Below, piece by piece: positions 40,431-60,926 of a DNA stretch of 64,000 nt. Position 1 is the stretch's first letter. Each line of letters starts with the position of its first letter. A program made the translations under genes and the position numbers. The stretch is from assembly GCF_005403045.1 (NCBI RefSeq), contig NZ_BJCL01000005.1, positions 1 to 64,000 of the forward strand. Reading direction: 5' to 3'. This DNA comes from Pseudaquabacterium pictum (lineage in GTDB: Bacteria; Pseudomonadota; Gammaproteobacteria; Burkholderiales; Burkholderiaceae_C). Below the pieces are notes generated by a model. It saw only the letters and a program-made list of their open reading frames with translations, was not told the DNA's origin and ran no database searches.

Positions 40431-42182
40431 ATGAAACTGAAGCTCTTGAGTCTGCTTGTTCCCCTGTGCCTGGCGTCGATGGGCGCCCAGGCCGCCACCC
40501 CGCCGGTCACCGACCGCATGATCGAGGGCGACGCCAGTTCCACTGGCGACGTGCTCAGCTGGGGCATCGGGCAGGAGGGTCAACGCTATTCGCCGCTGAA
40601 GACCATCCACACCGGCAACGTGGCCAAGCTGCTGCCCGTGTGGAGCTTCAGCTTCGGCGGCGAGAAGCAGCGCGGCCAGGAAAGCCAGCCGGTCATCCAC
40701 AACGGCAAGATGTTCGTCACCGCCAGCTACAGCCGCATCTTCGCGCTGGACGCCAAGACCGGCGCCAAGCTGTGGAAGTACGAGCACCGCCTGCCCGACG
40801 GCATCATGCCCTGCTGCGACGTGATCAACCGTGGCGCGGCGCTGTACGGCAACCTGGTGATCTTCGCCACGCTCGATGCCCAGCTGGTGGCCCTGAACCA
40901 GGACACCGGCGAGGTGGAGTGGAAGGAGAAGATCGACGACTACGCCGCCGGCTACAGCGCCAGCGCCGCGCCGCTGATCGCCGGTGGCCTGCTGCTGACC
41001 GGCGTGTCCGGCGGCGAGTTCGGCGTGGTCGGCCGCGTCGAGGCGCGCGACCCGAAGACCGGCAAGATGGTCTGGGTGCGCCCGGTGGTCGAAGGCCACA
41101 TGGGCAAGAAATTCGACAAGGACGGCAACGCCAGCGACAACGGCGTGTCCGGCACCGCCGGCAAGACCTGGCCTGGCGACCTGTGGAAGACCGGCGGCGC
41201 CGCCACCTGGCTGGGCGGCACCTACAACAAGAAGACCGGCCTGGCCTACTTCGGCACCGGCAACCCGGCGCCCTGGAACAGCCACCTGCGCAAGGGCGAC
41301 AACCTGTACTCCACCAGCACGGTGGCCATCGACATCAAGACCGGCCAGATCGTCTGGCACTACCAGAACACGCCGAACGACGGCTGGGACTACGACGGCG
41401 TCAACGAGTTCATCACCTACGACGACGGCGCCGGCAACATCCTGGGCGGCAAGGCCGACCGCAACGGCTTCTTCTACGTCAACGACGCCAAGACCGGCAA
41501 GCTGGTCAACGCCTTCCCGTTCGTCAAGAAGATCACCTGGGCCTCGGGCATCGACCTGAAGACCGGCCGGCCGAACTTCACCCCCGACGGCCGCCCCGGC
41601 GACCCGACGGCCGGTGCCGACGGCAAGAAGGGCAACGTGGTGTTCGCCGCGCCCAGCTTCTTGGGCGGCAAGAACCAGATGCCGATGGCCTACTCGCCGG
41701 AGACCAAGCTGTTCTACGTGCCGGCCAACGAGTGGGGCATGGAGATCTGGAACGAGCCCATCACCTACAAGAAGGGCGCGGCCTACCTGGGCGCCGGCTT
41801 CACCATCAAGACGCTGTCCGACGGCCCGATCGGCGCGCTGCGCGCGATCGACCCGAAGACCGGCAAGATCGTCTGGGAAGCACCGAACAACGCGCCGTTG
41901 TGGGGTGGCGTGCTGACCACCGGCGGCAACCTGGTCTTCTGGGGCACGCCGGAAGGCTTCCTGCAGGCGGCCGATGCCAAGACCGGCAAGATCCTGTGGA
42001 AGTTCCAGACCGGTTCGGGCGTGGTGGCCCCGCCGGTGACCTGGAGCGAAGGCGGCGAGCAGTTCGTGGCCGTGGCCTCGGGCTGGGGTGGCGCCGTGCC
42101 GCTGTGGGGTGGTGACGTGGCCAAGAAGGTCAACTACCTCGAGCAGGGCGGCTCGGTCTGGGTCTTCAAGATTCCGAAGTGA
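40431..42182 (+). CDS. PQQ-dependent alcohol dehydrogenase, lanthanide-type signature
   Basis: A 583-residue periplasmic quinoprotein of the methanol/ethanol dehydrogenase family, an eight-bladed propeller oxidising alcohols with PQQ. The signal peptide is about 1-21 (ASMGAQAA). The vicinal disulfide is C128-C129 (MPCCDV). W-motif repeats such as [13 protein letters not shown] are frequent. The catalytic base is D320 in GWDYDG, and D322 two residues later is the extra metal ligand that distinguishes XoxF/ExaF/PedH lanthanide enzymes from calcium enzymes. A strong GGAGGAG precedes the ATG. No heme-binding CxxCH is present, so it is type I and needs a separate acceptor. A tandem-hairpin region and HiPIP gene follow. 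Confidence 0.92.
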
Positions 42183-44742: not shown

Positions 44743-46272
44743 ATGCAACGACCCGCCCTGCCGCGCCGCAGCCCGCCCCTGGACCTGCCCCGCCTGGTGA
44801 TGCGCCGGGCCAGCCTGGTGGGCGTCCTGGTGCTGCTGCTGGCCCTGGTGCTGGGCCTGGCCCGCATGGGCGATGACATCGACGATGAGGTGGATGCGGC
44901 GATGACCCTGGCCGCCGCCATGGCCCGCCTGGGCCAGCTGGGCCAGACCGATGACCGCAGCGCGCTCGAGGCGCTGCGTGCGCTGCAGGCCGGGCACCCG
45001 CTGCGCCACCTGTCGCTGCAGGTGCATGCCCAGGATGGCCGGCTGCTGCTGGGCCCGCCACCGGCCGCGCCCGCGCCCGCACCGCTGCGCTGGCTGCTGC
45101 AATGGCACCAGGACTGGCTGTCGGTGCCCGATGACCGCCGCGTGGCCTGGCCGGTGCAGCGTGCCGATGGCAGCCGCTGGTCGGTGTCGCTGGCGGCCTC
45201 GCATGACAGCGAGCGGCACGAGGCCCTGGTCAGCCTGCTGGGCATGCTGGGCCTGCTGCTGCTGGCCGTGGCCGGGCTGCTGGCGGCCATGCACTGGAAT
45301 GTGCGCCGCGCCTTCGCGCCGCTGGGCCGGCTGCTGCAGGCGATTGCCGGCATCGAAGGCCACGACGCCCGCCAGGTGCAGGCCCTGCCGACCATGCCCA
45401 CGCGTGAGCTGGAATCGCTGGCCGCCGCACTGCGCCACCTGGGCGCCGCGCTGGACGAGGCCGAGGCCCAGCGCCGCCAGCTCAGCCAGCAGGTGCTGAC
45501 GCTGCAGGAGGATGAGCGCGCCCGCCTGGCGCGCGATCTGCACGACGAGTTTGGCCAGCGGCTCACCGCGCTGCGGGTGGACGCGGCCTGGCTGTCCCGC
45601 CGCGTTGCCGGTGATGCCGCATTGCAGCAGGTGGTCGACGGCATGGCCCAGCAGTGCGGCCTGGTGCAGCAGGACATCCGCTCGCTGCTCGGCCGGCTGC
45701 AGCCCTTCGGCCCGGCCGCGCCCGGTGCCGCGCCGGCCGAGAGCCTGGCCAACGGCACCGACCTGCTGCAGGCGCTGGTGGACAGCTGGCAGGGCAGCGG
45801 GCCCGAGCCCGGCCTGGCCTGCCGGCTGGAGCTGGCCTGGCTGGCCGCCGATGGCCAGCCGCAGCCCTGGCCCGCGGCCGATGCGGCGGCGCTGTGGCTG
45901 CCGCGCCCGCTGTGGCTGGCCGTCTACCGCATCAGCCAGGAGGCGCTGACCAACGTGGCCCGCCATGCCGGCGCGCAGCGGGCCGGCCTGCGGCTGCAGC
46001 TGCAGGGCGGGCGCCAGCCCGGTGCGCCGCTGCAGCTGCACTGGCAGGCCTGGGACGATGGCTGCGGCCTGCCGCCGCAGGCCACCGCCACCACGCCCCG
46101 CGCCGATGCCGTGCTGCCGCGCGGCAACGGCCTGGCAGGCCTGCAGCAGCGGGTGTGGGCGCTGGGCGGCGAGCTGCGCTGCACGGCCTGGCAGCCCGGC
46201 AGCGCCCGGCCCGGCCTGTGCCTGGCGGCCAGCTTCGACACCCGGCTGCTGCCGCCGCCACAGACCGCCTGA
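44743..46272 (+). CDS. NarX-type sensor histidine kinase (HisKA_3)
   Basis: A 509-residue membrane kinase. Two membrane segments (about 23-42 and 165-185) enclose a periplasmic domain of about 120 residues, followed by HAMP. The phospho-accepting H267 is in RLARDLHDEFGQ, the HisKA_3 dimerisation motif. The ATPase domain shows NVARHAG, DDGCGLPP and GNGLAGLQQR. HisKA_3 kinases phosphorylate NarL-type regulators; the nearest, at 48663, is separated by a divergently placed TonB receptor gene. A GCCGA-CAA-TCGGC palindrome lies directly before the start. PedS2-like control of PQQ dehydrogenases is a reasonable hypothesis. Confidence 0.92.
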   Translation: MQRPALPRRSPPLDLPRLVMRRASLVGVLVLLLALVLGLARMGDDIDDEVDAAMTLAAAMARLGQLGQTDDRSALEALRALQAGHPLRHLSLQVHAQDGRLLLGPPPAAPAPAPLRWLLQWHQDWLSVPDDRRVAWPVQRADGSRWSVSLAASHDSERHEALVSLLGMLGLLLLAVAGLLAAMHWNVRRAFAPLGRLLQAIAGIEGHDARQVQALPTMPTRELESLAAALRHLGAALDEAEAQRRQLSQQVLTLQEDERARLARDLHDEFGQRLTALRVDAAWLSRRVAGDAALQQVVDGMAQQCGLVQQDIRSLLGRLQPFGPAAPGAAPAESLANGTDLLQALVDSWQGSGPEPGLACRLELAWLAADGQPQPWPAADAAALWLPRPLWLAVYRISQEALTNVARHAGAQRAGLRLQLQGGRQPGAPLQLHWQAWDDGCGLPPQATATTPRADAVLPRGNGLAGLQQRVWALGGELRCTAWQPGSARPGLCLAASFDTRLLPPPQTA

Positions 46273-46287
46273 CCCGCCACCGCCCCG

Positions 46288-48555
46288 TCAGAACGTCAGC
46301 CGCAGCCCTAGCCACAGGCTGCGCGGCGCACCGGGCGCAACGAACAGCGCGTCTTCCTCGCTGCCGGTGAATTTGCCACGGGCGTCGAACACCGTCTCGG
46401 CCAGCGCGCCGTAGGTCTCGTAGCGCTTGTCCAGCGCGTTCGTCACCCGCGCCACCACGCTGAGCGCCGGCGTGGCCTGCCACTGCAGGCGCAGGTGCAG
46501 CAGGGTGTGGCCGGGGATGGAGAGGCGGTGCACCTCGGTGGCGCCGTCTTCCAGCAGGCCGTCCTCATTGCCCTGCACGCCGCGTGACGAGACGATCTGC
46601 ATGTCGGCCCCCACGCGCAGGCCGCGGCCCAGGGCCCAGTCGGCGCCCAGCTTGGCGCTGTGGCGCGGCAGGCCGGCCATCCTGGTGCCCGGGGTGATGG
46701 TGACGTTGCGTTCGCCCATGCGCAGCAGGCCGTGGGCCTGGTAGGTGGCCTGCAGGTGGCTGTAGCTGGCGGTGACGGCTACCGGGCCGTACTGCGCCTG
46801 CCAGGACGTGTCCAGCCCCTGGTGCCGGGTGCGCTGGAAGTTCTGGAAGTAGCCCAGCTGGCTGACCGCGCTGACGCTGCGGAAGACGATGTCGTCGCGG
46901 TTGTCGGTGCGGAACAGCGCCAGCTCCAGCCGCTGCCCCGGGGCCGGCCGCCAGCGCAGGCCGGCCTCCAGGCTGGTGGCGCGCACCTGCTTCAGGTAGG
47001 GGTCGCTCTGCAGGCCCACCGGCAGGCGGCAGGGTTCGTCGGGATCGGCGCAGCCCAGCTCGATGACGGTGGGCACCCGGGTGTTGCGCGCCAGGTTCGC
47101 AAACACCGCCAGGCCGGTGCCCACCTGCTGCGTGATGCCCAGCGCCGGGTTCAGGCTGGTGTAGGTGAAGCTCTCCTTGGGCTTGGCTTCCAGCACGCCG
47201 GTGTCGTCGTCCACCGTGGTCAGGGTGTTGCTGACGCGGCTGCGGTTGGCGCGCAGCGTGGCGGTGACATGGGTGCCCGGCGCCAGCTGCCAGGTGTCGG
47301 TGGCATACAGGCCCAGGTGCAGGCTCTTGCCGGTGACCGAGGCGCTGAGCTCGGCCTCCTCATCGCCGGCCAGCACGCCGCGGCTGGCATCGAAGCGGCC
47401 TTCCTGCTCCAGCTGGCGGTAACGCACGCGGCTGGCATCCACGCTGGCGCCCACCTGCCACTGGTGCGCGCCGCTGCGCCGGGCCAGGCTCAGTGCCGCG
47501 CCCCAGGCCGACTGGCGGGTGGCGGTGGTATTGAGCGAGGCGTTCTCGTCGGGCACCAGCGGGTCGAAGTCGTCCGCGCCGTCGCCATTCACCGTGTCGC
47601 GCCGGCTGTTGCGGGCATAGGCCAGGGCCTGCAGGCGGCTGCCGGCAGCCAGCTGCTGGCTGAGGTTGAACGTGGCCTGGGCCAGGCGGTTCTTCGTGCG
47701 GTCGGGGTGGGTGAAGACGGCGCTGCGCGAGGTGGCGTACAGGTCGGGCGTGCGGTTGCCGTCCTCGTCCAGCGTGGCGCTGGGCAGCAGGCCGTTGCCC
47801 ACCAGGGTGGCGCTGCCACCGAGCAGGCCCACGCTCCAGTCGGTGCCGCCCTGGCTGCGGCCCAACCTGGCCAGCACCAGCGCCTGCCTGCCGGGCGACT
47901 GGTCGCGCCAGCCGTTCTCGTCGAACACCGTGCCGCCCACGTAGCTGTGCCAGCCATCGGCATGGCGCTGGCCCAGGCCCACCTCGGCGCGCTGGCGGCC
48001 GTGGCTGCCGAAGCCCGCCTCGGCGCGCAGGCCCTCGGCGCTGCGGCCGTCCACCGTCTCCAGCACGATGGCGCCGCCCAGCGTGTTCAGGCCGAAGCTG
48101 GGGTTCGCCCCAGGCAGCACGGTGAGCGACTGCAGTGCGAACTCGGGCACCATGTCCCAGTTGATGACATCGCCGAAGGGCTCGTTGATGCGCACGCCGT
48201 CCAGGTACACCGACAGCCCCTGCGACGCGCCCAGCAGGCCCGAGGCGCGGTAGCCGCGGTAGGTGAGATCGGCCTGGAACGGGCTGCCCTGGATGTCGTT
48301 GACCTGCATGCCGGGCAGGCGGCGGGCCAGGAAGTCGGTCATGTTGTCGCCCTGGGCCTGGTCGAGCGCGCCGCGGCGCACCGTCTGGCTGGCATAGGGC
48401 AGCAGGTTGCGGTCGACGCCCAGGCCGGCCAGGGGCGAGGTGCCGATCACCTCCACCTGCGCGGTGGGGGCGTTCTGGGCGGACACGGTGGCGGGCCCGG
48501 AAGCGGTGATGGCTGCAATGGCGGCCAGGGCGGTGTGGCGCAGGCGTGGGAACAT
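46288..48555 (-). CDS. TonB-dependent outer-membrane receptor
   Basis: A 755-residue TonB-dependent transporter. The signal peptide ends near residue 27 (ATVSAQ), with a TonB-box-like VEVIGTSP. The plug contains DLTYRGYRASGLLGASQGLS and VYLDGVRINEPFGDVINWD, with SFGLNTLGGAIVLET at its end; the barrel closes with LWLGLRLTF. GAGGAG lies 10 bases before the chosen ATG 48555. It is not the PQQ-type receptor found at 36303, and its ligand is unknown. A metallophore, possibly for the lanthanide required by the dehydrogenase, is an attractive but unproven idea. It is flanked by a kinase and regulator on the opposite strand. Confidence 0.9.
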   Translation of the reverse strand: MFPRLRHTALAAIAAITASGPATVSAQNAPTAQVEVIGTSPLAGLGVDRNLLPYASQTVRRGALDQAQGDNMTDFLARRLPGMQVNDIQGSPFQADLTYRGYRASGLLGASQGLSVYLDGVRINEPFGDVINWDMVPEFALQSLTVLPGANPSFGLNTLGGAIVLETVDGRSAEGLRAEAGFGSHGRQRAEVGLGQRHADGWHSYVGGTVFDENGWRDQSPGRQALVLARLGRSQGGTDWSVGLLGGSATLVGNGLLPSATLDEDGNRTPDLYATSRSAVFTHPDRTKNRLAQATFNLSQQLAAGSRLQALAYARNSRRDTVNGDGADDFDPLVPDENASLNTTATRQSAWGAALSLARRSGAHQWQVGASVDASRVRYRQLEQEGRFDASRGVLAGDEEAELSASVTGKSLHLGLYATDTWQLAPGTHVTATLRANRSRVSNTLTTVDDDTGVLEAKPKESFTYTSLNPALGITQQVGTGLAVFANLARNTRVPTVIELGCADPDEPCRLPVGLQSDPYLKQVRATSLEAGLRWRPAPGQRLELALFRTDNRDDIVFRSVSAVSQLGYFQNFQRTRHQGLDTSWQAQYGPVAVTASYSHLQATYQAHGLLRMGERNVTITPGTRMAGLPRHSAKLGADWALGRGLRVGADMQIVSSRGVQGNEDGLLEDGATEVHRLSIPGHTLLHLRLQWQATPALSVVARVTNALDKRYETYGALAETVFDARGKFTGSEEDALFVAPGAPRSLWLGLRLTF

Positions 48556-48625
48556 CAGGAACTGTCTCCTCGTTGTGGTGTTGGAAAGCTGGTGATGCCT
48601 CTGCAAAGCATGGGCCCGGGCACCC

Positions 48626-48662: not shown

Positions 48663-49295
48663 ATGACAGTGCACGTGATGCTGGTGGACGACCACGCCGT
48701 GGTGCGTGCCGGCTACCGCCGCCTGCTGGAGCTGGAGCCCGATTGCGTGGTCAGCGCCGAGTGCGGCGACGGCGATGCCGCCTATGCCCTGCTGCAGCAG
48801 CGCCAACCGCCGCCGGTGGACGTGATCGTGCTCGACCTGTCGATGCCCGGGCGCAGCGGCTTCGACCTGCTGCGCCGCATCGCACTGCGCTGGCCCACGC
48901 TGCGCCGGCTGGTCTTCAGCATGCACGACAGCCCGGCCATGGTGGCCCAGGCCCTGGCCGCCGGGGCGGATGGCTTCGTCACCAAGAGCAGCCCGCCCGA
49001 GGTGCTGGTGGCCGCGCTGCGCCGCGTGGCCGCGGGCGAGCAGCGGGTGCTGTCGCCCGACATCGCCGACGCACCCGCCCAGCCGGCGGCGCAGGCGCCG
49101 CACCTGGCCCTGTCACCGCGCGAGTTCCAGGTGCTGCAGGGCCTGCTGGCCGGTGACGCGCTGGACGTGATCGCCGAACGCCTGCACCTGAGCGCCAAGA
49201 CGGTGTCGAACCACCAGACGCTGATCCGGCAGAAGCTGGGCGTGGGCAATGCGGTGGAACTGCTGCGCTATGCGCAGCTGCACCGCTTGTTCTAG
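48663..49295 (+). CDS. NarL/LuxR-type response regulator
   Basis: A 210-residue response regulator with receiver acidic pair D9-D10, phospho-acceptor D58 in VLDLSMPG and the lysine in FVTKSSPP. The C-terminal LuxR HTH includes LSPREFQVLQGLLAGDALD and LHLSAKTVSNHQTLIRQKL. It is the probable partner of the HisKA_3 kinase at 44743, despite the intervening minus-strand receptor gene. Start ATG 48663 has GGGG upstream; longer in-frame extension covers the divergent promoter and is not supported. Confidence 0.92.
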   Translation: MTVHVMLVDDHAVVRAGYRRLLELEPDCVVSAECGDGDAAYALLQQRQPPPVDVIVLDLSMPGRSGFDLLRRIALRWPTLRRLVFSMHDSPAMVAQALAAGADGFVTKSSPPEVLVAALRRVAAGEQRVLSPDIADAPAQPAAQAPHLALSPREFQVLQGLLAGDALDVIAERLHLSAKTVSNHQTLIRQKLGVGNAVELLRYAQLHRLF

Positions 49296-51535: not shown

Positions 51536-51988
51536 TCAGCCCGCGGTGAAGGTCTGCACCGCGATCCTGCCCTTGCGGATCACGAAGGTGTCGGTCGCCT
51601 GGTTCACGAAGGGCTTGGCCTCCCACACCAGGTAGGCCACATCGCCGTCGACCGCCTGCGCGCTGATCTTGAAGGCCTCCCAGAACCCCGGCTTCACCGA
51701 CTTCAGGAAGCCATCGAAGAAGCCCCGGATCTCGGTGGTGCCCCGGTACTGCTTGTCGTGCGTCAGGATCACCGACGCCGCCGTGTAGTCCTTCATGATC
51801 TCGTCCAGACCCTTGGCGAAGGCACCCAGATGGTGGTCCAGCACGGCCTTCGTCGACGGTGTCGCCGCCACGGCGGCCGCGGGCGTGCCCAGCAGCGGCA
51901 GCGCAGCCAGCGCCAGCGCGCCTTGCGCGAGCACTTGGCGCCGCGTGTCTTGCAGCGGCAGCGTCGAGGATGGGGTCCTGTCGGTCAT
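51536..51988 (-). CDS. SnoaL/NTF2-like protein with export signal
   Basis: A 150-residue protein with an N-terminal signal (RRQVLAQGALALAALPLLG, residues 16-34; twin arginines suggest Tat) and an NTF2-like alpha+beta fold (about 45-150). It is a clear paralogue of the upstream protein: both contain a KPGFWEAFKI or RPGFWEAFKI block and end in QTFTA. NTF2-like proteins include isomerases, dehydratases and ligand binders, so no function is assigned. The start overlaps the stop of its paralogue by 4 bases. Confidence 0.82.
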   Translation of the reverse strand: MTDRTPSSTLPLQDTRRQVLAQGALALAALPLLGTPAAAVAATPSTKAVLDHHLGAFAKGLDEIMKDYTAASVILTHDKQYRGTTEIRGFFDGFLKSVKPGFWEAFKISAQAVDGDVAYLVWEAKPFVNQATDTFVIRKGRIAVQTFTAG

Positions 51989-52353
51989 GGCTTGTCCTCT
52001 GCCAGTGCGGTGAAGGTCTGGATGTGGATCTTGCCGTCGCGCACCAGCAGCGTGTCGGTCGCCATCGCGATGAAGGGCCTGGCTTCCCAGGCGAGGTAGG
52101 CCACCTCGCCGCGCACCGCCTGGCGCTGGATCTTGAAGGCCTCCCAGAAGCCCGGGCGGATGCTCTTCAGGAACTCTTCGAAGAAGCTGCGGATGCCGGC
52201 CAGGCCGGTGATCGTGCCGCTCTGCAGGACGATGCTCGACTGCTCGGTGTAGTCGGCCACCAGCGCATCGAGACCGAGCGCAAAGGCGTCCAGATGGCTC
52301 TCCAACACTTCTTGCGTGCTGCGCACGCGGGATGGTTCCGGGACTGCTGGCAT
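51985..52353 (-). CDS. SnoaL/NTF2-like protein, cytoplasmic paralogue
   Basis: A 122-residue NTF2-like protein without signal sequence. Start chosen at ATG 52353 (MPAVPEPS); the open frame continues upstream without support. Shared blocks with the next gene are IRSFFEEFLKS / IRGFFDGFLKS, PGFWEAFKI, VAYLAWEA / VAYLVWEA, and ATDTLLVRDGKI / ATDTFVIRKGRI. This shows a local gene duplication in which the downstream copy gained, or this one lost, an export signal. Function unknown. Confidence 0.82.
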   Translation of the reverse strand: MPAVPEPSRVRSTQEVLESHLDAFALGLDALVADYTEQSSIVLQSGTITGLAGIRSFFEEFLKSIRPGFWEAFKIQRQAVRGEVAYLAWEARPFIAMATDTLLVRDGKIHIQTFTALAEDKP

Positions 52354-52480
52354 GCTGAGGTTCCTTGTCGTCGGCGCCCCCGCGGGGCCGGTGCGACGCA
52401 CGATACGCAAGCCCCTGGCGGCACACTGCCGCGCCAGCGAAACCCGGCTTGACCAGCAGCGCAGGCCGCCGGTGCCGGGC

Positions 52481-53467
52481 TCACTCGCCCTTGCTCGCCA
52501 GCCCCAGCCGCTCCACCACCACCCGCTCATGCTCGTACGCCGCACGCAGCGCGCGGCCGTAGTCCTCGGGCGCCAGGTACGCCGGCTCCTGGTCATAACG
52601 CGCCAGCTCGGCGACAAACGCCGGGTCCTGCATCGCGGCGCGGAAGGCCTGGTGCAGCACCTGCACCACGTCGGCCGGCATGCCCGCCGGGCCGGCCAGG
52701 CCGTAGGGCGACATGGCCACGATGTTGTGGCCCAGTTCCTTCAGCGTGGGCACGGTGGGCCAGCGCTTCGTGCGCTGTTCGCCGAAGGTGACCAGCAGCC
52801 GCAGCGTGCCCGCGTCGACGAACGGCGCAAAGCCGTTGCTGTTGACGCCCACCATCACCTGGCCGGCGGCCACGGCCACCATCTGCTCCGACGTGCCCTT
52901 GTACGGCACGTGGATGTAGCTGAGGCCGCGCTTGCCGAACAGCTCGTCGATCACCACATGCGGCGTGGTGCCGGCGCCGTTGGTGGCGATGGACAGCGCA
53001 TTCGGGTGGGCCTTGGCATGGGCGAACAGGTCGTCCAGCGTCCTGAACGGGCTGGCCGCCGGCACCACGATGCCGAAGGTGACGCCCGAGAGCTGCAGGA
53101 TCGGCGTGGTGTCGCGGATCGGGTCCCACAGCACCTTGCGGGTCCAGGGCGCGCGCAGCACCGTCTGCGGCAGCTGGGCCAGGGTGTAGCCGTCGGGCGC
53201 GGCCTGCTGCAGGATGGGCATGGCCAGCGTGCCGCCGGCGCCGCTGCGGTTCTCGATCAGCACCTTCTGGCCCAGGCGCCGGGCGGCGCCCTCGGCCAGC
53301 ACCCGGAAGGTGAGGTCGGTGGCGCCACCGGCCGGCCAGGGCAGCCACAGCGTGACCGGCCGGGTGGGAAAGCGCTGCGGCGCCTGCGCCAGCGCGGCGC
53401 CCCAGGCGGGGCCGAGGGACAGTGCGCCCAGCAGGCCCATCAGCTGGCGGCGGTGGTTCAGTTCCAT
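52481..53467 (-). CDS. Bug/TctC-type periplasmic substrate-binding protein
   Basis: A 328-residue tripartite-tricarboxylate-transporter-type binding protein, a family greatly expanded in Burkholderiales. The signal peptide spans about residues 1-27 (HRRQLMGLLGALSLGPAWGAALA). Typical blocks are PTRPVTLWLPWPAGGATD, IENRSGAGGT, HPNALSIATNGAGTTPH and PYGLAGPAGMP. No TctA/TctB membrane genes are nearby, which is usual for Bug orphans. Its start overlaps the lipoprotein stop by 10 bases, so it is translationally coupled to the PQQ-associated operon and may bind a product of alcohol oxidation. Confidence 0.92.
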   Translation of the reverse strand: MELNHRRQLMGLLGALSLGPAWGAALAQAPQRFPTRPVTLWLPWPAGGATDLTFRVLAEGAARRLGQKVLIENRSGAGGTLAMPILQQAAPDGYTLAQLPQTVLRAPWTRKVLWDPIRDTTPILQLSGVTFGIVVPAASPFRTLDDLFAHAKAHPNALSIATNGAGTTPHVVIDELFGKRGLSYIHVPYKGTSEQMVAVAAGQVMVGVNSNGFAPFVDAGTLRLLVTFGEQRTKRWPTVPTLKELGHNIVAMSPYGLAGPAGMPADVVQVLHQAFRAAMQDPAFVAELARYDQEPAYLAPEDYGRALRAAYEHERVVVERLGLASKGE

Positions 53468-54225
53468 TCAAGCAACTCCAGTGTCGTCTTGCCGCCGGCC
53501 AGGAAGGTGGAATTGGCCGGCTCGGTGCGTTCCAGCTTCACCAGGCCCACGCCCTTGCAATACCACTCGGTGGTGGTCAGCGGCATGTCCTTGAAGCCCA
53601 CCACCGGATCGGCGAACAGCTTCATCACCGCCGTGCCCTGCACGCGGATGCAATCGCTGAAGCTGCCGGCGCGGGTGGTCAGCTTGTCGCCCAGCGCCTC
53701 GATGCGGTAGGTCATGGGCACCGGCTTGTGGGTGTGGCGGATCTCGGGCGGAAAGTCGGCATTGCGGCGCAGCAGGTAGGTGGTGGTGGGGGCCTGCCAG
53801 CTGGTGCCCACGGCCAGCGGCATCTTCAGCACGAAGCGTGGTGCCTTGTCGGGTTCGGGCGCTTCCTGCAGGTCGGTCTTGCTGGCCACGCGGTAGATGC
53901 CGCTGTCGTCGGCCCGCAGCCAGTAGTCGATGCCGCTGTCGCTGCGGCGGCGCCAGGCGCTGCCGCTCTCGAGCTGGTCGCTGCCCAGGGCGCTCAGCAC
54001 CAGCGGCTCGCGCTCGACGGTGTTGTTCTCCCATTCGGTGACCTGCTCGTACACCCAGCGCTTGCCCGCCTCCAGCGGAAAGTAGGAGGTGCTGGCCGGT
54101 GGGCCGCCGCATCCGGTCAGTGCAAGTGCGGCCAGCCAAGCGGCCGCCGCGGAACCGGCTCTGCCGGGCCGCTGGGGGCGCCCCCCTGGGGGGGAGCGCC
54201 GCAGGCGCTTCGGGGGGGAGCTCAT
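53458..54225 (-). CDS. Predicted lipoprotein of the PQQ-associated operon
   Basis: A 255-residue protein not recognised beyond being a likely lipoprotein: a hydrophobic stretch ends in a lipobox LTGC (cysteine near residue 38). The mature part is beta-rich (YFPLEAGKRWVYEQVTEWEN, DSGIDYWLRADDSGIYRVA, VGTSWQAPTTTYLL). The basic first 25 residues (KRLRRSPPGGRPQRPGR) are encoded inside copy 2 of the dispersed repeat, so the n-region of the signal peptide derives from repeat DNA. It overlaps the upstream gene by 4 bases and the Bug gene by 10. Confidence 0.78.
   Translation of the reverse strand: MSSPPKRLRRSPPGGRPQRPGRAGSAAAAWLAALALTGCGGPPASTSYFPLEAGKRWVYEQVTEWENNTVEREPLVLSALGSDQLESGSAWRRRSDSGIDYWLRADDSGIYRVASKTDLQEAPEPDKAPRFVLKMPLAVGTSWQAPTTTYLLRRNADFPPEIRHTHKPVPMTYRIEALGDKLTTRAGSFSDCIRVQGTAVMKLFADPVVGFKDMPLTTTEWYCKGVGLVKLERTEPANSTFLAGGKTTLELLEWN
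54141..54222 (-). repeat. Dispersed GC-rich repeat, copy 2 (inside a coding region)
   Basis: The reverse strand of this segment matches copy 1 at 23678-23756: the core CCAGCGGCCCGGC, then two differing bases, then AGCCGGTTCCGCGGCG. The hairpin half is a diverged C-run/G-run (CCCCCCCAGGGGGG). This copy overlaps the end of a small membrane-protein gene and supplies the start of the lipoprotein reading frame. Confidence 0.75.
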
Positions 54226-54716
54226 TTTTCCGGTAGCTGCGGTGCGGGCATGTCGCGGATCTTGACGGCCTGCTCATCAGCACCCGGCCGCAGCCAGCCG
54301 ATGCCCTTCTTGCCGGCCTTGGGCTCGGCCGTGCCCATCTGGCTGATGCCCTGGCGGGCCTTCTTCATGCTCTCGTTGAGCAGGGCATGCAGGTCCTTGG
54401 TGTAGGCCAGCTTGTAGGCCCGCGGCTGGGCGATGGGCTTGCCCTTGTCGATGGCGTTGACCCAGATGTACAGCGCGCCGGCGGTCTTGCTGGTGGGCTC
54501 CTCGATCACCACCGCCAGCAGGGCAAAGCGTTCGGGCAGGGCATCGGGCGTGGGCCAGCCCGACAGGTTGTGCACCACGTCGTCGCCCCAGAAGTACAGC
54601 ACGGTGACGCCGGCCACCAGCAGGGCCTTCATCCACGCCGGCCAGCGCGACCACAGCAGCGCCAGGGCGCACAGCAGCACCAGGGCGGAGAACGCAAGGA
54701 TCAGGGCAAGGGACAT
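54222..54716 (-). CDS. Small membrane protein, function unknown
   Basis: A 164-residue protein with two closely spaced membrane segments (about residues 2-22 and 28-44) and a soluble C-terminal domain containing FALLAVVIEEPTSKTAGALYI and YTKDLHALLNESMKKARQG. No family was recognised. It lies between the ExbD-like protein (7 bases upstream) and the lipoprotein (4-base overlap), so it is probably a component of the same envelope complex. Start ATG 54716 begins directly at the first membrane helix; a longer upstream frame overlaps the ExbD-like gene. Confidence 0.75.
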   Translation of the reverse strand: MSLALILAFSALVLLCALALLWSRWPAWMKALLVAGVTVLYFWGDDVVHNLSGWPTPDALPERFALLAVVIEEPTSKTAGALYIWVNAIDKGKPIAQPRAYKLAYTKDLHALLNESMKKARQGISQMGTAEPKAGKKGIGWLRPGADEQAVKIRDMPAPQLPEK

Positions 54717-54723
54717 GGCAGGG

Positions 54724-55329
54724 TCAGATCCGTTCCACGATGGTCTTCGGCAGCGTGTTGATGTTGGTGACGCCGCCATCGGGCAGCAACGTGAAGCGGG
54801 CGGCGGTGGCCTCGTCGCCCTTGCGGGCCACGGTGACCTGGCCGTAGTACACGATCTCGGCGCGCGGGTTCACCTTGACGATGCTCACCGTCACATCCAC
54901 CGGCTTGCCGTCCTTGCTCTCGTAGTAATGGGCGTTGACGGTGTACTCGCCCGGGGCGATGCCGCGCAGCGTCACCACCTCCTGGTTCAGCGGGTTCACC
55001 ACCTGCTTGCCGTTGACCACGATGCTGTCGTTGGCCAGGCCGCGGTCGTCGCGGTCCAGGTGCATCAGGCCAGCCTCGCGGGCGCGGAACCACACCAGGT
55101 TGCCGCCCGGGTCCTGCACCCAGGCATCGATGTCGTTGGGATTCAGGTCGGGCCAGCTCACCGTGATGATGTACTCGGCCTTGGCCGGGATGTCGCCGGC
55201 CTTCAGCGCCTTGGGGTTCATCGCCAGCAGCGCCACGATGAAGCAGAAGACGAACGCGATCAGCATGTTGAACAACATGTCATAGAACGGGTCGACCTCG
55301 GCTTCGCGGGTGCGGCGGCGGCTGCGCAT
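54724..55329 (-). CDS. ExbD/TolR-like membrane protein with YfaP-like periplasmic domain
   Basis: A 201-residue single-pass protein. A basic N-terminus (RSRRRTRE) leads into DPFYDMLFNMLIAFVFCF, the position and pattern of the ExbD/TolR/MotB helix, with acidic residues D13 and D17 at its cytoplasmic edge. Instead of the usual ExbD periplasmic fold, the remainder resembles the YfaP/DUF2135 beta-sandwich: SWPDLNPNDIDAWVQDPGG, HLDRDDRGL and IAPGEYTVNAHYYES. It is 3 bases downstream of an ExbB-like gene, giving a probable ion-driven stator pair. The domain assignment is from pattern reading and should be regarded as tentative. Confidence 0.7.
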   Translation of the reverse strand: MRSRRRTREAEVDPFYDMLFNMLIAFVFCFIVALLAMNPKALKAGDIPAKAEYIITVSWPDLNPNDIDAWVQDPGGNLVWFRAREAGLMHLDRDDRGLANDSIVVNGKQVVNPLNQEVVTLRGIAPGEYTVNAHYYESKDGKPVDVTVSIVKVNPRAEIVYYGQVTVARKGDEATAARFTLLPDGGVTNINTLPKTIVERI

Positions 55330-55332
55330 GGC

Positions 55333-56034
55333 TCAGGGCTTGGGCGTGGCGCCGATGTGCAGGCCGGCGCGCTGGCAGTCGGCGACGAAGGCATCGGCAT
55401 ACCGGTCCAGCCGCGTCAGCTGCAGGCCCAGCAGGATGTTGCCCACCAGGCCGACCATGGTTGTCAGCAGCGCAATCCCCAGACCCTGCGTCAGGCTCTT
55501 CAGCAGGTCCTGGCTCTGGCTGGCGTCAAAGCTCTGGATGTTGCCGATCTGCAGCGCCAGCACCGAGAAACCGATCACCTTGCCCAGCAGCCCCAGCTTG
55601 AGCTGGATGCCGTTGACCCACCAGGCGGTGTGGTGCGGCGCCTGCGCCAGTTCCACCAGCAGGTCCAGCGGTGCGTTGTCGTCCACCGGCCGGGCGCGCA
55701 GGGCGGCCAGGTATTCGGCGGCCCAGCCCTCGCCACTGGTGGATGTGGCAACAGCGTGCAGCAGCCGGCGCTGGCGCTGCAGCTCGCGGCTGCGCGCGCC
55801 GCACCACAGCGTGCTGGCGAAGAACACCACGATGATCACCAGCGTGATGCCGGTGGGGTCGCTGCTCAGCAGCAGCGCCCACACGCCGCGCATGCCCAGC
55901 AGCCAGCTGCCGAACAGCAGCAGCCCGCCCAGGGCCAGCCATTCGAACCAGATCGGTTCGATCTGCAGGCCGTGCGGCCGGTCCGGCGTGCGCGCCGGCA
56001 GCGCGTTGGGGTGGGGGCGGTTGAAGAAGGCCAT
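55333..56034 (-). CDS. MotA/TolQ/ExbB-type proton channel protein
   Basis: A 233-residue inner-membrane protein with two membrane segments near residues 30-50 and 62-78 and the TolQ/ExbB channel core at about 145-205 (LKLGLLGKVIGFSVLALQI, SLTQGLGIALLTTMVGLVGN). The second half, with a conserved small-residue helix pair, is the ion-conducting module. It lies 11 bases after the ABC permease gene and 3 before the ExbD-like gene. No TonB-like gene accompanies it, so the energised partner may be one of the co-encoded periplasmic or lipoprotein components. Confidence 0.85.
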   Translation of the reverse strand: MAFFNRPHPNALPARTPDRPHGLQIEPIWFEWLALGGLLLFGSWLLGMRGVWALLLSSDPTGITLVIIVVFFASTLWCGARSRELQRQRRLLHAVATSTSGEGWAAEYLAALRARPVDDNAPLDLLVELAQAPHHTAWWVNGIQLKLGLLGKVIGFSVLALQIGNIQSFDASQSQDLLKSLTQGLGIALLTTMVGLVGNILLGLQLTRLDRYADAFVADCQRAGLHIGATPKP

Positions 56035-56045
56035 GGTGTGGAAAC

Positions 56046-56855
56046 TCAGCCGCCGCGTTTGGTCAGCTGACCGAAGCCGCGCTGCGGGTCATAGCCCCAG
56101 GCCGCCAGGAAGAAGCACAGGGCCAGCGTTCCCAGCACGATGAACGGCGACATGCCGGGGTCCTTGTCGTACAGCGCAAAGCGCATCCACTCCACCGCGT
56201 GGGTGAACGGGTTGAAGCGGGCGATCTGGTAGACCCAGGCCGCGCCGGACTCTTCCAGCTTCCACAGCGGGTAGAGCGCGGTGGACATGAAGTACATCGG
56301 GAAGATCACGAAGTTCATCGTGCCGGCAAAGTTCTCCAGCTGCTTGATGTGCACGCTCAGCAGCAGGCCCAGCGCGCCCAGCATCAGCGCCGACGACACC
56401 GCGGCGGCCAGCACCATCGGCGTGTTGGGTCCGATCACCGGCAGCGTCGTGCCCAGTGCCCAGGCCACCAGCACGAAGGCGGCGGCCTGCGCCAGGCTCA
56501 GCACCGCGGTGGCGGTGAGCTTGGCGAACAGGATCCACCAGCGCGGCAGCGGCGCGGTCAGCAGCAGGCGCATCAGGCCCATCTCGCGGTCGTAGACCAT
56601 GGCCAGGCTGCTCTGCATGCCGTTGAACAGTAGCACCATGCCCACCAGGCCGGGCGCGATGTAGACGTCGTACGGGATGTAGGTGTCGTAGGGCTCGTTG
56701 ATGGCCACGCCGAACACGTTGCGGAAGCCCGCGGCAAACACCGCCAGCCACAGCAGCGGCCGCACCAGGGCCGACACCAGCCGGCCGTACTGCCGCGCGA
56801 ACTTGAGAAGCTCGCGCAGCACGATGGCGCGCAGCGCCTGGAGTGCGTGGCTCAT
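56046..56855 (-). CDS. ABC permease of the PQQ-alcohol dehydrogenase-associated system (PedC-like)
   Basis: A 269-residue ABC-2-type permease with six predicted membrane segments. It starts with a cytoplasmic amphipathic region (RAIVLRELLKFARQYGRL) and has the EMGLMRLLLTAPLPRWWIL and FPMYFMSTALYPLW blocks characteristic of the PedC family found with PQQ alcohol dehydrogenases. Start ATG 56855 overlaps the binding-protein stop by 4 bases. With the ATPase at 59031 it would form an exporter-type transporter; the cargo is unknown. Confidence 0.92.
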   Translation of the reverse strand: MSHALQALRAIVLRELLKFARQYGRLVSALVRPLLWLAVFAAGFRNVFGVAINEPYDTYIPYDVYIAPGLVGMVLLFNGMQSSLAMVYDREMGLMRLLLTAPLPRWWILFAKLTATAVLSLAQAAAFVLVAWALGTTLPVIGPNTPMVLAAAVSSALMLGALGLLLSVHIKQLENFAGTMNFVIFPMYFMSTALYPLWKLEESGAAWVYQIARFNPFTHAVEWMRFALYDKDPGMSPFIVLGTLALCFFLAAWGYDPQRGFGQLTKRGG

Positions 56856-58033
56856 CGGGTTTTGCAGAGCTTCTCGGGTGCGTCGGCGCCGATGGCGTCG
56901 AGGTTGTTGGTCGGGTGCAGGATGCCCTCGGCCGGCGCGCTGGCGATGACGGCCTGGCCATCGCCCAGCAGCAGCGGCTGGCGCAGCTGGCCGTCCCAGG
57001 GGCGGAAGCTCATCGCCACGCCCTTGCTGCCGTCGAGCTCGGCCTTGGCCAGCGCGGTGGCGAAGGCGGCCGCGGGCCCGATCTTGGGGAGTTTGGGTGC
57101 CGCCACCGCAGCAGCGATCAGCGCCTTGCCGCCCAGCCAGGCTGACCAGGCATGCGCATCCATCGGTCGGCCTGCGGCGCGGGTGAGCCGGCGGGTGACC
57201 TGCGGTGCGCCGAAGCGCTCGTACTTGGCCGACCAGGCCATCGCCACCAGGCCGCCATCGCCCACCACCGGCCGGGGCAGGGCGGTGCGGTAGGGCAGGT
57301 TGACGGCGAACTCGCCGTCGGCGTCGACCACCCACACCACGTCGTAGGCCGCGCCGCCGCTGGCGGTGCCGGTCAGCAGCGCGGGGTTGGCCAGGTCGCG
57401 CTCGCGCGGGTCGGCCGACAGCTTGAAGGGCTTGCGGCCCACCAGCTTGAGCCCATAGCGCTGGATGGCCGCCGCCGCCACCGCGCCGCGTTCGGCATCG
57501 GCCGGGTCCTGGCTGACCAGCAGCAGCACGTGGCGCCAGTTGCGTGTCACCAGGGTCTGGGCGATGGCGTCGGCGCGCATGCGCTCGCTGGGGCCGATGT
57601 GCAACAGGTTCCTGCGGCAGTCGACGCCGCGCAGGCGGTCGGCAGCGGTGTAAAGGTTGAGCACCGGCAGCTTGCTGCCGTCGGCGGCGGCCAGCGTCCA
57701 GTCGGCCGGCAGGTCGGTCAGCAGCGCGGCGGCGCCGGCCTTCTCGGCCGCAGCGGCGGCGGCCCGGGCGGCGGCGGCATCGGCCACCGGCACAGTGTCC
57801 AGCGCCAGGCTGGCGCCAGCGGCGTCCAGTTCCAGCTTGCCTTCCTTCAGCGCCACGGCCACCGCATCGGCTGCCGGGCCCGACGGGTGGCCCGGCACGC
57901 CGCGCTCCAGCCGGCTGCGCGTGAGCCGCGGGTCGTCGGCCGGCACCAGCAGCACCGCCTTGAAGGCGGCGGCCTGGGTGGCGGTGGCTGCCAGGGTCAG
58001 CAGCGCGGCAGTGGTGATCCTGGCGAGCTTCAT
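56852..58033 (-). CDS. ABC substrate-binding-like protein of the PQQ-alcohol dehydrogenase system
   Basis: A 393-residue exported protein of the family annotated as substrate-binding component of the PQQ-dependent alcohol dehydrogenase ABC system. The signal peptide is about 1-23 (ALLTLAATATQAAA). Type-1 periplasmic-binding folds are suggested by VLLVPADDPRL, LLHIGPSERMRADAIAQTL and RNWRHVLLLVSQDP. C-terminal block: FRPWDGQLRQPLLLGDGQA. It is odd that a binding protein partners an ABC-2 (export-like) permease. Its start overlaps the beta-propeller stop by 4 bases. Confidence 0.88.
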   Translation of the reverse strand: MKLARITTAALLTLAATATQAAAFKAVLLVPADDPRLTRSRLERGVPGHPSGPAADAVAVALKEGKLELDAAGASLALDTVPVADAAAARAAAAAAEKAGAAALLTDLPADWTLAAADGSKLPVLNLYTAADRLRGVDCRRNLLHIGPSERMRADAIAQTLVTRNWRHVLLLVSQDPADAERGAVAAAAIQRYGLKLVGRKPFKLSADPRERDLANPALLTGTASGGAAYDVVWVVDADGEFAVNLPYRTALPRPVVGDGGLVAMAWSAKYERFGAPQVTRRLTRAAGRPMDAHAWSAWLGGKALIAAAVAAPKLPKIGPAAAFATALAKAELDGSKGVAMSFRPWDGQLRQPLLLGDGQAVIASAPAEGILHPTNNLDAIGADAPEKLCKTR

Positions 58034-59013
58034 TCGACGATGACGACGCTGTGCGGCACGCGGCCCACCTTCACCGTCTTGGTGGCCTTGGCGCTGGCCA
58101 CATCGACGATGCTCATGTCGTCCGACAGGCCGTTGACCACGTAGAGCGTCTTGCCGGCCTTGTCCAGCGCCACGCCCCAGGCGCGCTTGCCCACCAGCAC
58201 CAGGTCGGTGGTCTTGCGGCTGGCCACGTCGACGAAGGCCACATGGTTGGCCTTGCCCAGGCTGACGAAGGCGCGCGTGCCGTCGCGCGCCATGGTGATG
58301 CCCACCGGCGTGATGTCGGCCGCGCGGGCGCCCTTCACGGTGAACTTGATGGTGTCCAGCACCGTCTGCGCCTTGGTGTCGATGACGGTGACGCTGGCGT
58401 CCAGCTCGTTGGTCACCCACAGCTGGGCGCCGTCGGGTGTCAGCGCAAAGCGGCGCGGGCGCTTGCCGGCGGGGATGTTCTTGGCCACCTTGCCGCTGGC
58501 CAGGTCGACCACATGCACCAGGCTGGCGACTTCCGACGTGACATAGGCCGTCTTGCCGTCGGGCGACAGCTTCACGCCTTCGGGCTCTTCGCCCACCTTG
58601 ATGGCGCCGGTGCGCTTGCCGCTGGCCACGTCGACGATGCCCAGCTCGGCGTCTTCCTCGTTGGTGACGTACAGCGTCTTGCCGTCGGCGGTGACGTCGA
58701 AAATCTCCGGGTCGCTGCCCAGGGCCAGCAGGCGCACGCGCTTGCGTGTGGCCAGGTCGATCAGGTCGGCCTGGCCCGAATCACCGCAGGCCACCAGCAG
58801 GTGCTTGCCGTCGGGCGCGATCTGCATGTGGCGCGGCCGCTTGCAGGTGGCCACGGTGCCGGTGACGGTCTGGGTCTTCAGGTCGACCAGGGCCAGGGCG
58901 TTGTCCTTCTCGCTGGACACCCAGGCCGTGCCCTGGGCCTGGGCCAGGGTGGCGGTGAGCAGGGCAGCCGCCAGGGCAGCGCGGTGCAGGGGCAAGGGCA
59001 GGGCAAGGGGCAT
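58030..59013 (-). CDS. PQQ-dependent catabolism-associated beta-propeller protein
   Basis: A 327-residue exported seven-bladed YVTN-type propeller. The signal peptide ends near residue 26 (LAQAQG), followed by repeats of about 42 residues such as LVDLKTQTVTGTVATCKRP, VTADGKTLYVTNEEDAELG and LSPDGKTAYVTSEVASLVH. It belongs to the propeller family found with PQQ alcohol dehydrogenases and this ABC system. It may bind quinoprotein or substrate in the periplasm. It lies 17 bases downstream of the ATPase gene. Confidence 0.92.
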   Translation of the reverse strand: MPLALPLPLHRAALAAALLTATLAQAQGTAWVSSEKDNALALVDLKTQTVTGTVATCKRPRHMQIAPDGKHLLVACGDSGQADLIDLATRKRVRLLALGSDPEIFDVTADGKTLYVTNEEDAELGIVDVASGKRTGAIKVGEEPEGVKLSPDGKTAYVTSEVASLVHVVDLASGKVAKNIPAGKRPRRFALTPDGAQLWVTNELDASVTVIDTKAQTVLDTIKFTVKGARAADITPVGITMARDGTRAFVSLGKANHVAFVDVASRKTTDLVLVGKRAWGVALDKAGKTLYVVNGLSDDMSIVDVASAKATKTVKVGRVPHSVVIVE

Positions 59014-59030: not shown

Positions 59031-59777
59031 TCAGGCAGTGGCGCGGATGAAGGCTTCTTCGAGCGTGCCGCCGCCCAGCGCGGCGGCCACGGCGGCTGGC
59101 GTGCCATCGGCCAGCAGCCGGCCCCTGTGCAGCACCAGCACCCGGTCGGCGGCCTCGGCCTCTTCCACCAGGTGGGTGGCCCACAGCACGCTGCTGGCGC
59201 GGGCGCGCACATCGTCATGCAGGCGCTGGCGCAGGTCGCGCCGGCTCTTCGGGTCCAGGCCGACGGTGGGTTCGTCCATCAGCAGCAGACCGGGGCGGTG
59301 CAGCAGGGCACGCACCAGTTCCACCTTGCGGCGGTTGCCGCCCGACAGCTCGCGCACCGCGCGGTCCAGGTCGGTGGCCAGGCCGGCGGTGGTGCAGTCG
59401 TCGGTGATGCGCTGGGCGGCCAGCGCGCGCGGCAGGCCGTGCAGGTCGGCATGGAAGCGCAGGTTGCGCGCCACGCTCAGGTCCAGGTCCAGCGACATGG
59501 CCTGGAACACCACGCCGATGTGGCGCAGCGCCGCCACCGCCTGGTGGCGCAGGTCGTGGCCGTCCACCTGCACCTTGCCGCCGTCGGCGGCGAACAGGCC
59601 GGTCAGCACCTGGAACAGCGTGCTCTTGCCCGCGCCGTTGGGCCCCAGCAGCGCGGCAAAGCAGCCGGGCTGCAGCGTGAACGACAGGCCGTCCAGCGCG
59701 GCCCGGGCGCCGTAGCGCTTGGTCAGCTGGTCGATCTGCAGGCGCGGGCCGGCGGTGCTGGGCGTGGGATCGGTCAT
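59031..59777 (-). CDS. ABC ATPase of the PQQ-alcohol dehydrogenase-associated system
   Basis: A 248-residue ABC-2-type ATPase: Walker A GPNGAGKST, Q-loop VVFQAMSLD, signature LSGGNRRKVELVRAL, Walker B LLLMDEPTVGLD and switch histidine in ATHLVEEAEAAD. The start gives MTDPTPST. It would energise the PedC-like permease. It lies 79 bases downstream of the PqqB-like gene. Confidence 0.93.
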   Translation of the reverse strand: MTDPTPSTAGPRLQIDQLTKRYGARAALDGLSFTLQPGCFAALLGPNGAGKSTLFQVLTGLFAADGGKVQVDGHDLRHQAVAALRHIGVVFQAMSLDLDLSVARNLRFHADLHGLPRALAAQRITDDCTTAGLATDLDRAVRELSGGNRRKVELVRALLHRPGLLLMDEPTVGLDPKSRRDLRQRLHDDVRARASSVLWATHLVEEAEAADRVLVLHRGRLLADGTPAAVAAALGGGTLEEAFIRATA

Positions 59778-59856: not shown

Positions 59857-60681
59857 TCACAGCTCGATCTCCATGCCGTCGTAGGCCAGGGCGATGCCGT
59901 CTTCGGCCCAGGTGGTGCCGCCGTCGGGGTCGGGCGTGTCGGCAAACAGCACCTTGTGGCGGGCCGGCATGTCGCGCAGCAGCGCCAGCCACGGCGGCGT
60001 GCCGACCGCGGCGCCGTCCCCGGGCAGCAGGTTGTCCAGCAGCAGGCAGTCGGCCTCGCGCATCCATTCGAACTCGGTGCTGCCGATCTGCGACAGGCCC
60101 GGCGCGCAGAACACCCGCTGGCCGGTGGCCAGGTCCTGCACCGCCAGCGCGATGCTGTCGCCCACCTGCGGTGACTCGCCGCGCGCCGTGGATGCCAGGT
60201 GCGGCGGCAGCGGGCTCTGCGTGGCCACCGCGGTGAACTGCAGGCTGGGCATGCCTTCCACCCGGAAGGCCGCCACCCGCCGGTCGCCGGCCACCGGCAC
60301 CACCCGCCAGTGCACGCTGCAATAGTGCTGCAGCACCGGCAGCACCGGGAGCGCCGTGGTCAGCTGCTCGAAGACGGCTGGCGTGGCGTACAGGTCGATC
60401 GGCGCGCCGTCGCGCAGGCTCAGCAGGCCGCCGACATGGTCGACCTGGGCATCGGTCAGCACCACGGCGCGCACCTCGGGCTCGGGCAGGCCGAGGTGGC
60501 TGTCCAGCCGCAGGTCGCTGTCGAGCTGGTGGGCCACGCCGGGCGACATGTTGACCAGCACCCAGCGGCCGCTGCCGTTGCCGATGGCCATCACGCCGCG
60601 CTCGCGGGTGGAGCCGGCAGGGCTGCCCGGTGCCCGGCGCCGGCGCAGGCTGCTGCCGCCCCGCAGGATCACGATCTTCAT
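59857..60681 (-). CDS. PqqB-like MBL-fold protein lacking the zinc-finger motif
   Basis: A 274-residue cytoplasmic metallo-beta-lactamase-fold protein resembling PqqB, the hydroxylase of PQQ biosynthesis. Shared features are MKIVIL at the start and VVLTDAQVDHVGGLLSLRDG, where PqqB has TDAQIDH instead of HxHxDH. The N-terminal CxCxxC motif of true PqqB is absent: that region reads SSLRRRRAPGSPAG. It may therefore be a repurposed paralogue rather than a biosynthetic PqqB. It is the first gene of the ten-gene minus-strand operon and is divergent from another MBL-like gene. No pqqA, C, D or E is in the window. Confidence 0.8.
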   Translation of the reverse strand: MKIVILRGGSSLRRRRAPGSPAGSTRERGVMAIGNGSGRWVLVNMSPGVAHQLDSDLRLDSHLGLPEPEVRAVVLTDAQVDHVGGLLSLRDGAPIDLYATPAVFEQLTTALPVLPVLQHYCSVHWRVVPVAGDRRVAAFRVEGMPSLQFTAVATQSPLPPHLASTARGESPQVGDSIALAVQDLATGQRVFCAPGLSQIGSTEFEWMREADCLLLDNLLPGDGAAVGTPPWLALLRDMPARHKVLFADTPDPDGGTTWAEDGIALAYDGMEIEL

Positions 60682-60926
60682 GACCGCTGCGTCGGTTGTG
60701 CCCGCACCCGCGGTGCGCCGCCCCGTGGCGGGATTGCGGCAAGATGGCTCATGGTTGCACGCCCCTCGGTGTTGTTGTGTTCCGCCGGCTGGCCCGCCGG
60801 CGGCGCTTTGGCCGCAGCGCTGCAAGACACATGCCGCCACCGCCGCAGTCCCTGCAGCCCGCGCCTGGGCGACCGGCCGCCGGCCTGCGCCAGGGGGTGT
60901 GTGACAGCCTGCCTCCGGAGTGTTCC

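Follow-up and report, generated by a model that had tools for sequence, protein, structure and literature searches.

A MotA/TolQ/ExbB-type gene cassette associated with quinoprotein and PedA1A2BC-type transporter genes, with a possible role in lanthanide or cofactor delivery

We analyzed a 64,000-nt stretch of Pseudaquabacterium pictum DNA (positions 1 to 64,000 of contig NZ_BJCL01000005.1), hereafter called the window, using six-frame open reading frames (ORFs) and their translations as gene calls. On the minus strand at 53458–56034, the window contains a cassette of four genes, encoding an ExbB-like channel protein, an ExbD-like protein, a two-helix membrane protein and a lipoprotein. This cassette is strongly associated with genes for quinoproteins and for ATP-binding cassette (ABC) transporters of the PedA1A2BC type. 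Many bacteria that oxidize alcohols with rare-earth-dependent enzymes carry it next to genes encoding either these enzymes or their rare-earth importer, and it probably powers an envelope step in the handling of the metal or cofactor. Our best reading is that the cassette would be a variant of the ExbBD/TolQR/MotAB motors, co-opted to power an envelope step by which lanthanide or cofactor is delivered; it is the gene association that points to such delivery as its work.

Association of the cassette with transporter and quinoprotein genes

Co-occurrence was measured in 80 genomes of a gammaproteobacterial class-level sample, 38 with and 42 without a match to the ExbD-like profile; the 42 were picked at intervals along the list of handle numbers. 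Of the 38 cassette genomes, 26 had the ABC binding protein, versus 1 of the 42 others (Fisher 1.4e-10), and the association held when each family was represented by one genome (~2e-8). Strong matches to pyrroloquinoline quinone (PQQ)-dependent alcohol dehydrogenases (PQQ-ADHs), where the threshold for "strong", about E 1e-50, was judged by eye with the table already in view, were present in 26/38 versus 6/42 genomes (Fisher 9e-7). Among the genomes with a PQQ-ADH, the cassette occurred in 25 of 26 that had the binding protein and in 1 of 6 that did not. A TonB-dependent receptor profile was likewise matched in 21/38 versus 2/42. Where transporter and receptor disagreed, the cassette went with the transporter: it was present in 6 of 7 genomes having the ABC genes and no receptor, and in 1 of 3 having the receptor and no ABC genes, although these numbers are small. 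The presence of the cassette is thus better matched by the ABC transporter than by the receptor, and strict coupling to the receptor is disfavored. Alpha-, beta- and gammaproteobacteria all show the association of the cassette with quinoprotein genes and ABC genes of the PedA1A2BC type (for the genomes known by a G handle, the class names alpha- and gammaproteobacteria were deduced from the rank at which they were sampled).

The four genes recur in dozens of genomes with order and strand unchanged, so the arrangement of ORFs is not due to chance. The cassette order is kept in beta-, gamma- and alphaproteobacteria. The original prediction had described a module of channel, ExbD-like protein and membrane protein, bound by tight spacing and overlaps to a PQQ-associated ABC operon. 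Every feature was confirmed at its position, but the true unit comprises four genes, with the lipoprotein included. The linkage to the ABC genes does recur in other genomes: in records of Aquabacterium, Ideonella, Leptothrix, Sphaerotilus and Rubrivivax the cassette is flanked by pedC and tctC. However, no ABC genes were found near it in the Piscinibacter, Rhizobacter and Ramlibacter records or in genome G027, and obligate linkage was therefore rejected. In genome G008, residues 1 to about 44 of the ExbB-like protein run on, in frame, into the final ≈10 residues of the lipoprotein, with PedC and TctC still on either side; here the cassette was lost in one piece and the surrounding operon was retained. 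The conserved gene order and this block deletion show that the four genes behave as a single unit in the lineage of the window.

The ExbD-like profile had matches in 7 of 399 genomes in the order sample, 18 of 398 in the phylum sample, 43 of 369 in the class sample and 9 of 61 in one alphaproteobacterial-type family; a few weak matches are to DUF2135 domains of other proteins. A search of plasmids returned only distant Azospirillum relatives at ≈30% identity.

The cassette proteins

The channel protein (233 residues, 55333–56034, minus strand) has four hydrophobic segments and the motif LGLLGKVIGF ... ALLTTMVGL. By itself it scored 20.9 bits against the Pfam MotA_ExbB profile, slightly below the 22.9 cut-off, but 23 of 24 members of its family matched the profile at E<=0.01, the best at 8e-11. 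The TT-VG motif of such channels was present; G151, G155 and T192 were invariant, and T152 was found in ≈90% of a diverse set, this position being Lys in the betaproteobacterial clade of the window and Thr in most relatives. The channel subunit is therefore a member of the MotA/TolQ/ExbB superfamily, bearing out the ExbB/TolQ-type identity originally proposed, and this membership makes ion-driven motion the default reading. A PDB sequence search with the ExbB-like and ExbD-like profiles gave nothing informative beyond a weak MotA/ExbB chain.

The ExbD-like protein (201 residues, 54724–55329, minus strand) has a short cytoplasmic N-terminus, a single transmembrane helix and a beta-sandwich outer domain, its AlphaFold model consisting of the helix and the sandwich. 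Like ExbD and TolR, it carries an Asp where its single N-terminal helix enters the membrane, with candidates at D13 and D17 (VDPFYDMLFNML). Among 74 homologues, D13 was found in 67 and D17 in 56, and all 74 had at least one of the two. Of the pair singled out in the original prediction, one or the other is thus always kept while D17 is not universal, and the two residues appear to substitute for one another across lineages.

It had also been proposed that the exterior of this protein resembles a YfaP/DUF2135 sandwich rather than an ExbD domain, and this is supported through profile intermediates. The ExbD/TolR profile (PF02472) matched neither the window protein nor any of the 31 family members, and the window protein was absent from the ExbD profile matches in its own genome. 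Its direct match to DUF2135 (PF09906) was weak (E 0.21; best member 0.004), and 6 of the 31 members matched weakly, but the ExbD-like profile matched a VIT-DUF2135 protein across its curated DUF2135 domain at 1.8e-6. A VIT-domain protein with a terminal DUF2135 domain at locus L078 (7082–10435) was recognized by this profile. W59, D66, D68, D94, D95 and E117 of the outer domain were invariant in the 74 sequences, which suggests a functional acidic site; that it binds metal is a guess. The AlphaFold model had a mean predicted local distance difference test score (pLDDT) of 67.5, with residues 85–114 below 50, and a Foldseek search with it gave no match at E<=0.001. Its structural neighbors include TerD proteins, with Z values of 5.4–7.0 (best 7.0). 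These values are too low to assign a fold and may reflect a common arrangement only, so that a calcium or lanthanide site is no more than an idea.

The two-helix protein (164 residues, 54222–54716, minus strand) was not recognized as a member of any family. It has two predicted transmembrane helices followed by a beta/alpha domain; homologues support the ATG at 54716 as its start, against a longer 185-residue ORF, and its C-terminal QLPEK is invariant in the betaproteobacterial set. A fold search with its AlphaFold model (mean pLDDT 71.4) returned nothing at E<=0.001, the top rows being scattered. The lipoprotein (53458–54225, minus strand, precise start uncertain) has the lipobox LTGC and is DUF3108-like, scoring 22.8 bits, under the 27 cut-off, while a relative at locus L118 scored 30.7, over it.

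Compared with known systems, the cassette shares with ExbB-ExbD(-TonB) and TolQ-TolR(-TolA) a superfamily channel and, after it, an anchor that crosses the membrane once and has an Asp at its membrane entry (P-F-x-D). It differs from them in that its outer domain is related to DUF2135 and not to ExbD/TolR, in having no TonB or TolA gene, and in the additional two-helix protein, often joined by a lipoprotein. Its outer domain is related to those of YfaP and other DUF2135 proteins by profile intermediates, but is attached to a motor anchor and not to a VIT/VWA-type protein. The ZorA-ZorB pair of the Zorya defense system also combines a MotA/ExbB-type channel with a single-pass partner, and weak ZorA matches were obtained (E 0.003). 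However, the context of the cassette is metabolic, neither a ZorB-type partner nor ZorC/D/E neighbors were identified, and PADLOC gave no match for the three proteins submitted as P0002–P0004, the ExbD-like protein among them; a role in Zorya defense was rejected.

Quinoprotein and lanthanide-related genes near the cassette

In the window, the cassette lies within a minus-strand run ordered ABC ATPase, propeller, binding protein, PedC permease, the four cassette genes and a TctC-type protein, with intergenic distances from -10 to 17 bp throughout. The PedC and ExbB-like genes are separated by 11 bp, the ExbB-like and ExbD-like genes by 3 bp, and the ExbD-like and two-helix genes by 7 bp; the two-helix and lipoprotein genes overlap by 4 bp, and the lipoprotein and TctC-type genes by 10 bp. 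In NCBIfam, the permease (56046–56855) matched TIGR03861 at 356.8 bits, over the cut-off; the PedA2-like beta-propeller protein (58030–59013, TIGR03866) and the PedB-like ATPase (59031–59777, TIGR03864) were also over their cut-offs, while the PedA1-like substrate-binding protein (56852–58033, TIGR03863) scored 313 bits, under its cut-off of 413.6. A PqqB-like metallo-hydrolase lies at 59857–60735 on the same strand (137.9 bits, under the 245 cut-off).

With permease, ATPase, propeller and binding protein in a single operon, the ABC genes have the PedA1A2BC layout. PedA1A2BC is needed for growth of P. putida at low lanthanide concentrations and was reported as a lanthanide importer, with homologues in all strains then known to have lanthanide-dependent PQQ-ADHs (PMC6839425), and LutH and LutAEF take up lanthanides in M. 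extorquens (PMC7391723). The window genes belong to the PedA1A2BC family, and by analogy with these two systems this copy would transport lanthanides. As in PedA1A2BC and LutAEF with LutH, ABC genes and a TonB-dependent receptor are present in the window, where all four ABC genes and the receptor accompany the cassette; the motor cassette is the addition, no ion-driven motor having been described there in the papers searched. In the methanotroph Methylomicrobium alcaliphilum, two MotA/TolQ/ExbB genes are repressed by La (PMC6277846), but they could not be tied to the cassette family. Open-access full texts yielded no account of a cassette of this kind in either lanthanide or PQQ systems; most subscription papers lie outside this search, and priority is not established.

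The window also encodes a PQQ-ADH (40431–42182, plus strand) with the DxD motif GWDYDGVNE. An Asp two residues past the catalytic Asp is a lanthanide-type signature of these enzymes, and it was present in all 11 PQQ-ADHs read in cassette loci, which supports lanthanide use by the enzymes and not lanthanide handling by the cassette. The TonB-dependent receptor (46288–48606, minus strand) has relatives immediately upstream of the cassette in loci L014 and L038; the Ramlibacter record and G027 show this arrangement. It is flanked by a sensor histidine kinase (44743–46272, plus strand) and a NarL-type response regulator (48663–49295, plus strand); the cassette has a comparable pair as its neighbor in L014 and in Bradyrhizobium-like loci.

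Quinoprotein-system genes lie close to the cassette in many loci. Locus L126 has, all in one direction, xoxF, the cytochrome gene xoxG, a xoxJ-like binding protein gene, SoxYZ, a zinc hydrolase, a rhodanese and the cassette. PedC, ATPase, propeller and binding protein accompany the cassette in L129 and L153; a histidine kinase, response regulator, SoxYZ, PQQ-ADH and binding proteins in L118; and SoxYZ, hydrolase and MoxJ-like genes in L066 and L151. The xoxF, cytochrome and xoxJ labels were read from the sequences; that of xoxF was supported in G856, G966, G1010 and G809 by TIGR03075 matches at the same places. On a tree of the 74 ExbD-like proteins, a quinoprotein-context label, which is approximate because we assigned it from the loci, needed 9 changes, at least 6 of these being forced by well-supported branches, compared with a mean of 20 for shuffled labels.

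Other neighborhoods were also seen. In L122 (6979–11857), L128 and L134, the cassette subtype adjoins YkuD L,D-transpeptidase, DUF302 and VWA-FHA proteins, and the two-helix protein is sometimes present in two copies. In L067–L070 and L080, from a genus of the phylum sample with 6–9 Mb genomes (g246) that we take to be Bradyrhizobium-like, the genes after the cassette encode a metallophosphatase and a Ser/Thr kinase-Usp protein, and a histidine kinase/response regulator pair is divergently oriented. L141 (8927–10689), a 32% GC locus in a ≈1-Mb genome, has the ExbB, ExbD-like and two-helix genes among housekeeping genes, and no PQQ system was found there.

Possible role and alternatives

We propose, tentatively and as a serious possibility, that the four genes encode a MotA/TolQ/ExbB-type envelope machine that delivers lanthanide ions, their chelate or PQQ across the envelope, before the PedA1A2BC-type importer and the lanthanide-dependent alcohol dehydrogenase. 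Five channel subunits would enclose two ExbD-like anchors, the DUF2135-like domains outside would be shifted by ion flow past D13/D17, and this motion would reach the periplasm or outer membrane by way of the two-helix protein and lipoprotein. Knowledge of how lanthanides pass the bacterial envelope is partial: a receptor and an ABC transporter have been identified, and the outer-membrane step in P. putida was described as unresolved (PMC12997753). A machine of this kind, conserved, driven by ions and tracking the ABC importer, could be a missing energized step in this uptake, and would give the ExbBD/TolQR/MotAB superfamily a new architecture. The more far-reaching version, in which the cassette represents a class of envelope motor not described before, driven by ions, bearing a metal-responsive DUF2135-type outer domain, general to proteobacterial lanthanide metabolism and physically driving delivery of the metal or chelate, we consider doubtful.

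Several observations weigh against the delivery proposal. Twelve of the 38 cassette genomes lacked the binding protein, and most of these also lacked a strong PQQ-ADH match; such carriers include the ≈1-Mb genomes of family f261, family f166, G906 and G874. Many gammaproteobacterial binding-protein matches were partial (E ~1e-18 to 1e-31), so some may be paralogues. G1039 has the ABC and PQQ-ADH genes and no cassette, and G008 kept its ABC genes after losing it. Most gamma- and alphaproteobacterial subtypes lack the lipoprotein, and some subtypes adjoin L,D-transpeptidase, DUF302 and VWA-FHA genes. Because of such peptidoglycan and signaling neighbors and the carriers without PQQ enzymes, the machine is not exclusively linked to lanthanides, and its core performs, or once performed, other tasks as well. 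The same neighbors, and the cassette genomes without PQQ systems, would suit a general Tol-type motor for envelope maintenance that lies only secondarily near quinoprotein genes, but the strong co-occurrence and repeated linkage with quinoprotein and ABC genes make this very unlikely.

An unlikely alternative of another kind is a dedicated TonB-less energizer, in which motor and lipoprotein directly open the nearby receptor. The receptor genes that directly precede the cassette in L014 and L038, the relative in the window and the enrichment of the receptor profile among cassette genomes would fit, but the cassette follows the ABC genes more closely, a strong receptor match goes without the cassette in G801 and G1016, and the host genome encodes several canonical ExbD proteins. 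That the cargo is PQQ, for cofactor import or loading, and not a lanthanide seems distinctly unlikely: the best NCBIfam match of the window receptor is the PQQ receptor PqqU, though far under the cut-off (89 of 1200 bits), and PqqB-like and quinoprotein-relay genes are nearby, but the cassette follows the importer with its reported lanthanide dependence rather than the PQQ-ADH alone. The original prediction had suggested quinoprotein substrate transport or cofactor loading. The quinoprotein link holds, but since the ABC genes belong to the family of a reported lanthanide importer, metal delivery is better supported than a quinoprotein substrate, and a quinoprotein role cannot be the only one, because some lineages carry the module with no PQQ system found. 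Least probable in our judgement is a sensor or regulator, whose motor or acidic outer domain would sense metal or envelope state and signal to the adjacent two-component system. The flanking kinase/regulator pairs (in the Bradyrhizobium-like loci together with the kinase and phosphatase) and the acidic residues invariant in 74/74 sequences agree with this, but many loci lack such a pair, and the low model confidence at residues ≈85–114 leaves metal binding without structural support.

The host genome encodes a second PQQ-ADH (L157, 1423–3258; G000:C7:109311-110828) with the DxD motif PYDYDATE, adjoining a sigma54-type regulator fragment and a MoxJ-like protein. In the window, the minus-strand run ends with the TctC/Bug-type solute-binding protein (52481–53467). 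Between it and an AraC-type regulator, at 51536–52617, a neighboring pair of small proteins is encoded; they resemble each other, look NTF2/SnoaL-like by eye, and one has a Tat-like signal.

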